Shown one piece after another: positions 54,927 through 56,568 of a DNA stretch of 62,746 nt. How positions within the stretch are numbered: position 1 is the first letter of the stretch; every line of letters starts with the position of its first letter. A program made the translations under genes and the position numbers. Origin of the DNA: a virus; the IMG/VR virus record IMGVR_UViG_3300044971_000798, positions 1 to 62,746 of that record. One strand, written 5' to 3'. A model generated the notes under the pieces. The model made no database searches, had not been told where the DNA came from, and saw only the letters and a program-made list of their open reading frames with translations.

Positions 54927-54947
54927 CCAATGAAATCAATAACTTAC
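54927..54947 (+). repeat. Control-region 21-base motif, copy 1
   Basis: CCAATGAAATCAATAACTTAC. Three more copies follow in the same orientation at 55068, 55332 and 56548. The shared core is CCAATGAwwTCA followed by a TTA. All lie in the divergent control region, so they are candidate iterons or operators. Confidence 0.6.
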
Positions 54948-54954
54948 AAGCCCA

Positions 54955-55055
54955 GGTGAGGGAGTGAGAATGGTGAGCAGCTAACTTCCAGATTAGGAAA
55001 AGAAGCTATATAATATAATAGAAGTTTGCCCCGACCCACGCTCACTTTCTCACCC
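54955..55055. repeat. Cruciform-like unit A: GTGAG cluster, AT core, CTCAC cluster
   Basis: Three GTGAG words at 54956-54976 face CTCAC words at 55041-55055 across about 60 bases with an AT-rich core (TATATAATATAATAG, 55006-55020). The two flanks are rough inverted repeats, so the DNA or RNA could fold into a long hairpin. Copy 2 of the 21-base motif follows at 55068-55088. The arrangement is repeated as unit B at 56442-56543. Confidence 0.7.
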
Positions 55056-55067
55056 GCGCCCACTTTC

Positions 55068-55088
55068 CCAATGATTTCAGTAGCTTAG
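55068..55088 (+). repeat. Control-region 21-base motif, copy 2
   Basis: CCAATGATTTCAGTAGCTTAG, 13 bases after the CTCAC cluster of unit A, as in unit B. Confidence 0.6.
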
Positions 55089-55173
55089 CTAGTGAAGGTT
55101 TACGAATGACACTCACCCTCTCTCACTCTAACTCTGCCCTAGCTCTAGCCTAGATGCGCGTATGCGCGCGGGC

Positions 55174-55224
55174 GTGCCTGGGCGTGTGCGTGTGTGTGTG
55201 TGTGTGTGTGTGTGCCTGGGCGTG
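55174..55224. repeat. (TG)n tract with flanking direct repeats, Z-DNA-prone
   Basis: Twelve TG pairs (55191-55214) lie inside a 34-base run of strictly alternating purine and pyrimidine (55182-55215). The run is flanked by the 13-base direct repeat GTGCCTGGGCGTG (55174-55186 and 55212-55224). More CG and TG steps extend from 55155 to 55250. Such tracts form Z-DNA under negative supercoiling and are rare in phage genomes. It lies between unit A and the gene at 55462. Confidence 0.9.
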
Positions 55225-55331
55225 CGTGCGCGTGCATAGGCGCGTGCGACTAGGGCAGGCTAGGTAGGGAACAAAGAGGGAACGAGCAGGGGGCTAGATG
55301 GGCCAAAGAGAATTGTAACAAAATGTAACTG

Positions 55332-55352
55332 CCAATGATTTCAATGGGTTAG
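55332..55352 (+). repeat. Control-region 21-base motif, copy 3
   Basis: CCAATGATTTCAATGGGTTAG, 110 bases upstream of the gene at 55462. A direct repeat GTAAC-AAAAT-GTAAC lies just before it (55315-55329). Confidence 0.55.
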
Positions 55353-55461
55353 GGCTATTGCAATGCCTGGGGCTTTGTGAAATTATAATTGGGCCAAGGC
55401 GGAAAGCGCTAAGGCGGGACCGGACCCTATCCGGGGCGCATAACCTAAGGAAATCAGCGCC

Positions 55462-55884
55462 ATGTCTATTAAAATCAATACCTATGTTTCGAAGGCTGGT
55501 AAGGAATTTCGTTCGCTTAGCGTTGCCGATATTTTCGCGGCGCTTGGGATGCCGGAGCAAGCGGCGGCGGGATGCGGTTTGACGCCAGACGGTAAAACCC
55601 TGCTTTTGTGGGAACCGAAGGCGCCTAAGCAAGAGAAGGCGCCGCACATTGCCAAGGAAATGCAAGCCGCCATTACCGCATGGGCGGAGCATATCAAAAG
55701 CGGGGCTGGCAAGCTTGAAGATATTCAAGACAAGGTGTTGCGGGATAGCGTTGCACGCCTAATGAAGCCCGCCCCTATTCAAATGCCGCCCACCAAACAG
55801 GCAATCCAGATGCCCCCCGCGCGCCAAGTAAATGAAACTGGTCCTGTTGGCGTGACCATCACCCGGCGGAAAAAGGTAGCATAA
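55462..55884 (+). CDS. Protein coded inside the control region (140 aa)
   Basis: The start has AAGGA upstream. The N-terminal part 'INTYVSKAGKEFRSLSVADI' and 'FAALGMPEQAAAGCGLTPDG' looks like a small folded domain; the C-terminus repeats 'IQMPPTKQAIQMPPARQ' and ends in basic RRKKVA. It stands alone, framed by the repeat region and a perfect terminator, between the two divergent gene blocks. A gene in this place might encode an origin-binding or regulatory protein, but no family is recognised. Confidence 0.7.
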   Translation: MSIKINTYVSKAGKEFRSLSVADIFAALGMPEQAAAGCGLTPDGKTLLLWEPKAPKQEKAPHIAKEMQAAITAWAEHIKSGAGKLEDIQDKVLRDSVARLMKPAPIQMPPTKQAIQMPPARQVNETGPVGVTITRRKKVA

Positions 55885-55896
55885 ACAAAGAGTTAG

Positions 55897-55926
55897 CCCC
55901 TAGGCAGAAATGCTTAGGGGTTTTTT
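55897..55926 (+). terminator. Intrinsic terminator after the 55462 gene
   Basis: CCCCTAGGC-AGAAAT-GCTTAGGGG (one G-T pair) is followed by TTTTTTC. It is a textbook intrinsic terminator 13 bases after the stop codon and isolates this gene's transcript. Confidence 0.92.
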
Positions 55927-56140
55927 CTTGCCTAGGCCTAGGTATATTTTCCTATCTAGCCTCTAGTCTAGAGGGAATCTATTCCCATCCGACCAGGGCG
56001 CCGCCAGGAATCTATTCCGCCAGCCGAGGGGGTAGGCCGGGGCGGGGCTGGAAAATTACGCCCGGTCAGGCTCTGTATCAGTATGCCCCTACCAAAATCG
56101 CGCGTATTTTTAGACTTGCCTTTCTTTCGCCACAATCCCC

Positions 56141-56320
56141 CTATCCCATTTTCATAGGCCCGCCACCCGTATAGCCCCGCGACAACGCCTTCAACATTTC
56201 GTAAAGCGCCTGCTGCACTTCCGTCTCGGTAAACGCCCGGCCATCCTTCGCATAAGCTTCCCGCATGCAATCCTGCAAACTAGACCACATCTGCTTTGCA
56301 AATTCTTCGCGTGTCACCAT
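56141..56320 (-). CDS. Possible small helical protein (59 aa)
   Basis: From the ATG at 56320 the frame gives VTREEFAKQMWSSLQDCMRE then 'AYAKDGRAFTETEVQQALYE', a convincing amphipathic helical protein. The ribosome site is weak (GGGTGTGGG). It is the only leftward frame in the control region. The flanks 55927-56140 and 56321-56441 show no gene. Confidence 0.45.
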   Translation of the reverse strand: MVTREEFAKQMWSSLQDCMREAYAKDGRAFTETEVQQALYEMLKALSRGYTGGGPMKMG

Positions 56321-56441
56321 GCCCACACCCTACCCGAAACCCAGGCGCCCGTCAACCCCCGGCGCGGGTGAGTTTCTGTTTGTAAAGCTCACCGCAACCC
56401 TCACCAAAAAGATGTAGTCATATCAAGCGATTAGCTCAAAA

Positions 56442-56543
56442 GTGAGAAAGGTGAGGAAGGTGAGCGCCCCCTTCTTATCAGAGAAGAAAGTATATAATAT
56501 ATAAAAGGTAGGCGATTTTACGCTCACCTCACTCACCGCTCAC
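56442..56543. repeat. Cruciform-like unit B: GTGAG cluster, AT core, CTCAC cluster
   Basis: GTGAGAAAGGTGAGGAAGG then GTGAGCG (56442-56466) faces CGCTCACCTCACTCACCGC then TCAC (56521-56543); GGTGAGCG and CGCTCACC are perfect complements. Between them lies the AT core TATATAATATATAAAAGG (56491-56508). The order of elements, including motif copy 4 five bases downstream, is the same as in unit A about 1.5 kb away. Confidence 0.7.
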
Positions 56544-56547
56544 TTAT

Positions 56548-56568
56548 CCAATGATATCAATGACTTAG
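56548..56568 (+). repeat. Control-region 21-base motif, copy 4
   Basis: CCAATGATATCAATGACTTAG, the copy closest to the consensus, with a central TGATATCA palindrome. It follows the CTCAC cluster of unit B. Confidence 0.6.

Follow-up and report, generated by a model that had tools for sequence, protein, structure and literature searches.

Paired GTGAG/CTCAC units as probable replication origins, with a candidate, putatively autoregulated initiator helicase, in a phage genome of about 61 kb

Gene content and the two GTGAG/CTCAC units

The window (the whole stretch of DNA analysed, 62,746 bases, virus record IMGVR_UViG_3300044971_000798) encoded a terminase, a portal protein, a tail fibre, a split family A DNA polymerase, RIIA/RIIB homologues and an exonuclease, together with a Sak4-like protein, ThyX and a ribonucleotide reductase (RNR). 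Its closest TerL was that of Pelagibacter phage HTVC023P (37% identity), and parts of the window searched against 50,697 phage records gave no DNA match to known phages. The final 127 bases (62620-62746) were identical to 1917-2043, inside a tail-fibre gene. An exact overlap of this length points to an assembly-graph join (k=127) in which 1-1916 represents an alternative path through the tail fibre; the two ends are thus probably connected, and the genome is probably a circular map of ~60.8 kb.

The thyX gene (57426-58469, plus strand) contained an in-frame homing-endonuclease-like segment (ThyX at about 1-108, HNH-like at 119-248 and ThyX at 254-343 of the ORF), for which inspection by eye revealed no obvious intein ends. 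The family A DNA polymerase (39433-42741, minus strand) consisted of two ORFs, an exonuclease (41707-42741) and a polymerase (39433-40872), with an endonuclease-VII-like gene and a small ORF between them.

Two related units, A and B, were located between the leftward and rightward gene blocks (Table 1). Each was composed of three GTGAG pentamers 8-9 bp apart, an AT-rich core of ~60 bp and opposed CTCAC pentamers. The order proposed from the letters alone, GTGAG cluster, TATATAATAT core, CTCAC cluster and a 21-base motif, was found in both units, and the TATATAATAT sequences at 55007 and 56491 were the only two in 62.7 kb. The term “cruciform-like” used in the original prediction was a poor description, because the arms, 50-60 bp from each other, consist of short arrays of pentamers; they are better described as opposed protein-binding arrays. 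Nine GTGAG/CTCAC sites were present in 54880-55140 and ten in 56350-56620, where the genome rate predicts 0.28 and 0.29, respectively. The strict core (three GTGAG, then CTCAC within 85 bases) began at 54956 and at 56442 in the window, and none of 100 dinucleotide-preserving shuffles produced it. Within the window the GTGAG triplet was confined to the units, its third match (56523-56543, minus strand) being the right arm of unit B.

Table 1. Features of the two units, of the flanking promoters and of the helicase gene, with their positions in the window.
Feature	Position	Strand	Details
Operator	5017..5053	+	GTGAG 5017, GTGAG 5025, CTCAC 5049; straddles the -35 TTGCAA (5037-5042); 70/80 relatives
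Helicase promoter TTGCAA-17-TAGGAT	5037..5065	+	Conserved; -35 TTGACA in many relatives
Candidate initiator, 491-aa P-loop helicase	5090..6565	+	ATG start; ORF listed as 5066-6565 from GTG
Leftward sigma-70-like promoter TTGACA-17-TATGGT	54667..54695	-	Outside unit A; comparable position in many relatives
Unit A, whole	54893..55126	+	Outer GTGAG/CTCAC, IHF site, GTGAG x3, AT-rich core, CTCAC x2, outer CTCAC x2
IHF-consensus site AATCAATAACTTA, left of unit A core	54934..54946	+	Exact WATCAANNNNTTR; originally predicted motif at 54927
Unit A core	54956..55053	+	GTGAG 54956, 54964, 54973; CTCAC 55041, 55049; triplet spacing kept in relatives
Unit A AT-rich run TATATAATATAATA	55007..55020	.	Proposed DNA unwinding element
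Degenerate IHF-like motif, right of unit A core	55068..55088	+	2 mismatches
IHF-like motif ~110 bp before gene 55462	55332..55352	+	1 mismatch
Variable 140-aa gene between the units	55462..55884	+	No family match; homologues between the units in 6/17 loci
Unit B, whole	56368..56607	+	Outer GTGAG, CTCAC x2, IHF site, GTGAG x3, AT-rich core, CTCAC x4, IHF site, outer CTCAC
IHF-consensus site TATCAAGCGATTA, left of unit B core	56421..56433	+	Exact match; not in the original prediction
Unit B core	56442..56543	+	GTGAG 56442, 56451, 56460; CTCAC 56523, 56528, 56532, 56539
Unit B AT-rich run TATATAATATATAAAA	56491..56506	.	Proposed DNA unwinding element
IHF-consensus site TATCAATGACTTA, right of unit B core	56555..56567	+	Exact match; originally predicted motif at 56548
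Rightward sigma-70-like promoter TTGACA-17-TATATT	56731..56759	+	Outside unit B; comparable position in many relatives

Other features of the region included a GT-rich alternating purine-pyrimidine tract (55155-55250) between unit A and gene 55462, and two copies of GGAATCTATTCC 33 bases apart (55974-55985 and 56007-56018), with a weaker third copy at 56675-56686; these copies are related, in inverted form, to a stretch at 54906. An Rfam search of the region did not find an RNA element. The GC-skew analysis proposed earlier was run across the window and located no origin; it was uninformative because the skew follows gene orientation.

Conservation of the units and their flanking IHF-type sites

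Related contigs, found via the reductase, RIIA, the 55462 gene and the helicase, were searched for the units, as had been suggested. Unit B was present in 16 of 16 relatives, and both units in 15 of 16 (RNR loci of at least ~78% identity with enough upstream sequence; some units match only a relaxed pattern, and unit A of L040 is degenerate). Five more distant reductase loci (51-73% identity) were without either unit. The distance between the two cores ranged from 1.4 to 4.7 kb and the intervening genes varied; the pentamer spacing (8 and 9) and the opposed CTCAC pair were retained while the rest diverged, as was the AT-rich core, before which a purine stretch (GAAAGAAGAA-like) was often present. 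In the related contigs searched, GTGAG triplets were found only at the units. Several of these contigs are fragments, and the relatives are non-independent samples. The protein encoded by gene 55462, named in the original prediction as a possible binder, was rejected as the common one: its homologues lie between the units in too few relatives, and the units persist without the gene.

A variant of the preferred reading (given below), and compatible with it, is that only one unit is the origin and the other a cis-acting accessory site, like crr of phage P4, or a site for copy control (“handcuffing”). In P4 the initiator repeats occur at crr as well as at ori, CTCAC copies are more numerous and IHF sites better in unit B than in unit A, and unit A is degenerate in some relatives (L040, L041 and L042). 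The complete core plan, AT-rich centre included, is nevertheless present in both units of most relatives, and this variant is given somewhat less than an even chance.

The 21-base motifs were originally read as iterons. The four copies described (54927, 55068, 55332 and 56548, all on the plus strand) were all present, and a fifth motif-like sequence, TATCAAGCGATTA at 56421, had been missed. Their reading as iterons was rejected, the consensus for IHF binding WATCAANNNNTTR (taken from several papers) providing a better fit. Only four exact matches to WATCAANNNNTTR exist in the 62.7-kb window, three of them at the units (54934, 56421 and 56555). Among 36 units of relatives, which share descent and are not independent events, the exact consensus was found in the left flank of 15 and the right flank of 20, and within one mismatch in the left flank of 29 and the right flank of 30; random windows gave ~0.15-0.18% exact matches and 3% within one mismatch. 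The flanking sites vary in sequence among relatives yet retain the consensus. To judge from these patterns, the 21-base motifs are better read as host IHF sites, at which IHF itself would bind, and the GTGAG pentamers are the likely iterons.

Inverted arrays with IHF sites are also known at recombination and packaging sites, and the units could on this ground serve packaging, partition or recombination instead of replication or transcription. Such a role is very improbable: the circular map puts ~11 kb between the units and the terminase genes, no match to an integrase or partition gene was obtained among the genes examined, and the operator at the helicase gene (see below) points to replication.

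The helicase gene, its operator and GTGAG arrays in other phages

On the circular map the helicase gene follows the reductase, and the relatives likewise have it downstream of that gene. A GTGAG/GTGAG/CTCAC pattern covers its promoter in 70 of 80 relatives, and those shown without the full pattern retain part of it. The GTGAG “relic” originally noted upstream of 5090 is consequently no relic: it is a conserved element, and the accompanying proposal that the same protein binds there and at the units is supported in the form of a putative operator. Through this operator (5017-5053) the initiator may regulate its own synthesis.

The 491-aa product is a P-loop helicase, probably SF3-like, with the Walker A motif GEQGSGKST. 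Homology to a phage primase-helicase was found: the protein resembles the C-terminal part of gp37 of Microbacterium phage Zeta1847 (27%, tblastn 4e-15, hhalign probability 98.9), which is annotated as a DNA primase and has a Toprim domain in its N-terminal part. No curated SF3 or P4/D5 model matched the helicase above cut-off (DUF5906 reached E=0.026, below cut-off) and TIGR01613, the P4-family model, did not match it; phrog_1829 (DNA primase) gave E=0.0013, and weak P-loop matches to ABC transporters were obtained as well. AlphaFold models of the full length and of residues 140-491 were of low confidence (mean pLDDT 39 and 50). Foldseek searches with these low-confidence models returned poxvirus D5 as the best hit (E=0.046, not significant), with ASFV PrimPol and PriRep1 also in the top list, none of them significant. 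The structure model was poor, and no DNA-binding domain could be shown in the helicase.

A pattern with 25 fixed bases retrieved 39 stretches from IMG/VR, mostly of the window's own lineage. The sporadic arrays from other phages, which fall into separate groups, were selected by the GTGAG pattern, except that of Synechococcus phage MinM1, which was reached through L128; placement beside primase-helicase genes was not a selection criterion. In L122 and the related L091 and L121 the array was 3' of a gene for a Prim-Pol protein, in L106 and L116 a P4-family primase gene (TIGR01613) contained it in its 3' part, and in L128 it was 3' of a phrog_21086 helicase gene. A protein search with the L128 helicase found a homologue in MinM1 (35%), and the gap 3' of this gene contained GTGAG n3 GTGAG n4 GTGAG and CTCAC n3 CTCAC n3 CTCAC, the only such triplets in the 42.8-kb genome. 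The window helicase was remotely similar to the L128/MinM1 proteins (hhalign 2.3e-5, probability 76%), and its hhalign comparisons with the L122 and L106 proteins were not significant. In L122, L121 and L091 the array adjoins a perfect or near-perfect hairpin (such as GAGATATCTAATAATATTAGATATCTC).

No GTGAG arrays were found in the flanks of the primase-helicase homologues of vir525, phiAsp2, RcXuper, Acjo_20, Mwe-JY13 and two fecal contigs. Repeated hexamers of other sequence were observed beside the primase-helicase genes of vir525 (Methanosarcinales; CGGGTA/TACCCG, L306 4200-4790) and of Acinetobacter phage Acjo_20 (GTTACA/TGTAAC, L309 1400-2060), and these are possible origins. A scan of bacterial genomes for the GTGAG pattern gave 99 stretches, mostly dispersed repeats of Saprospiraceae and other Bacteroidota; these GTGAG/CTCAC arrays (L129-L208), often matching on both strands at once, were judged unrelated from their repeated occurrence and near-palindromic form.

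The units might alternatively be transcriptional operators or enhancers through which a GTGAG-bound phage regulator controls the divergent early blocks, as it would the promoter at 5037-5065, and not origins. The element at 5017-5053, with its conserved GTGAG/CTCAC sites, does lie over a promoter, and a leftward and a rightward promoter flank the pair of units. These sigma-70-like promoters are however about 110-290 bp outside the units, no TTGACA-like -35 was seen in the conserved AT-rich core, the units are more elaborate than an operator needs, and the similar arrays of other phages are 3' of, or within, primase-helicase genes; a purely transcriptional role is thus quite unlikely. The original prediction, “origin and/or two-sided operator”, holds best in its first half, favoured by the architecture, the conservation and the PICI-like placement of the arrays; the distance of the promoters makes its second half the less likely one.

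It is also unlikely, if a little less so, that GTGAG is bound by another phage protein, perhaps a small one encoded in the leftward block, which recruits the replisome. Several genes of that block had no family match, and the poor helicase model, in which no DNA-binding domain could be shown, also speaks for another binder. Against this, the operator belongs to the helicase gene itself, the arrays of other phages adjoin primase-helicase genes, and helicase and arrays are present or absent together: eight helicase-bearing related contigs have units (strict or relaxed pattern), and in seven RNR-bearing contigs that are more distant, both the triplet and a helicase match are lacking.

Proposed initiation scheme and comparison with known origins

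The reading preferred here, which is held to be fairly probable, is that units A and B are two initiator-helicase origins, that the initiator is autoregulated and that the units resemble P4 ori/crr and PICI origins. From the arrangement of sites we infer initiator binding, melting, bending, origin firing and autoregulation, and a purpose for the duplication, as follows. The GTGAG pentamers would be the initiator-binding sites, and the three direct GTGAG with two or more opposed copies would position two helicase assemblies facing each other across the core, where the AT-rich DNA would melt; host IHF at the flanking WATCAANNNNTTR sites may bend the DNA and so help assembly. The initiator would most likely be the helicase at 5090-6565, which, bound to the GTGAG/GTGAG/CTCAC operator over its own promoter, would limit its own synthesis. 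The two copies may back each other up as redundant origins, or looping may bring them together as a pair of the ori/crr kind. A broader scenario is offered tentatively and is rather doubtful: a phage lineage of ~60 kb would have taken up an initiator-helicase origin of PICI/P4 type, detached it from its initiator gene and duplicated it as a conserved pair on either side of a swappable gene cassette, with looping or handcuffing, IHF and autoregulation controlling initiation.

For most phages known only from metagenomes the origin is unknown; here a candidate origin, initiator and operator can be named from sequence. The signature (GTGAG n3 GTGAG n4 GTGAG, AT-rich core, CTCAC n3-4 CTCAC, IHF sites) is transferable, and its GTGAG part also locates the likely origin in an isolate record, that of MinM1. 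If the preferred reading is true, a type of origin that has been described as exclusive to phage satellites extends to full-size phages, and the lineage provides a system for testing the reason why an origin stays duplicated.

The comparison with SV40 and papillomavirus (T antigen, E1) is one of function: opposed sites around an AT-rich tract load two opposed hexamers, a double hexamer (PMC9894130) to which the proposed helicase pair is likened as an analogy of mechanism, no sequence relationship being claimed. The SCCmec Cch2 origin resembles the units in having three 5-nt iterons (AAGTG), to which an initiator helicase binds through its C-terminal domain (PMC7581432), but it requires direct repeats only and is a single site downstream of cch2.

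In the satellite phage P4 (alpha protein; NC_001609) the initiator repeats are clustered at crr (4291-4590) and at ori (9086-9809), 4.8 kb apart, so that both genomes have two clusters of short repeats separated by several kb, if the GTGAG pentamers are initiator sites. In P4 crr, too, repeats face each other over an AT-rich stretch of 35 bp (68% AT), and the P4 half-site GGTGA (GGTGAACA, reverse of TGTTCACC) resembles GGTGAG. Unlike the window, P4 has the opposed repeats in reversed orientation (TTCACC first, then GGTGA), its crr is 3' of alpha whereas the units are away from the helicase gene, no exact IHF site was found near its ori or crr, and the window helicase has no match to the P4-family model.

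PICI origins have an AT-rich region between two sets of iterons, 3' of rep (PMC6092414), and the C-terminal domains of SaPI Rep and SCCmec Cch2 recognise short iterons (PMC7581432). The units likewise have two sets of short putative iterons flanking an AT-rich region, the proposed initiator is a phage-type helicase, and the GTGAG arrays of other phages are immediately 3' of primase-helicase genes, as is the case in L122, L128 and MinM1. In the window, by contrast, the proposed origin is at 54.9-56.6 kb and the candidate initiator gene at 5.1 kb, ~9 kb apart on the circular map and not adjoining. Membership of the PICI type is not claimed, because this adjacency was looked for and not found and the helicase family is unproven. 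Further differences from PICI/SaPI are the duplication of the proposed origin, the flanking IHF consensus sites and the operator on the helicase promoter, as well as the nature of the element, which is a phage of ~61 kb encoding a TerL, portal, tail fibre and PolA of its own and not a satellite island. By analogy with these systems, the units may nevertheless work like PICI, SCCmec and P4 origins.
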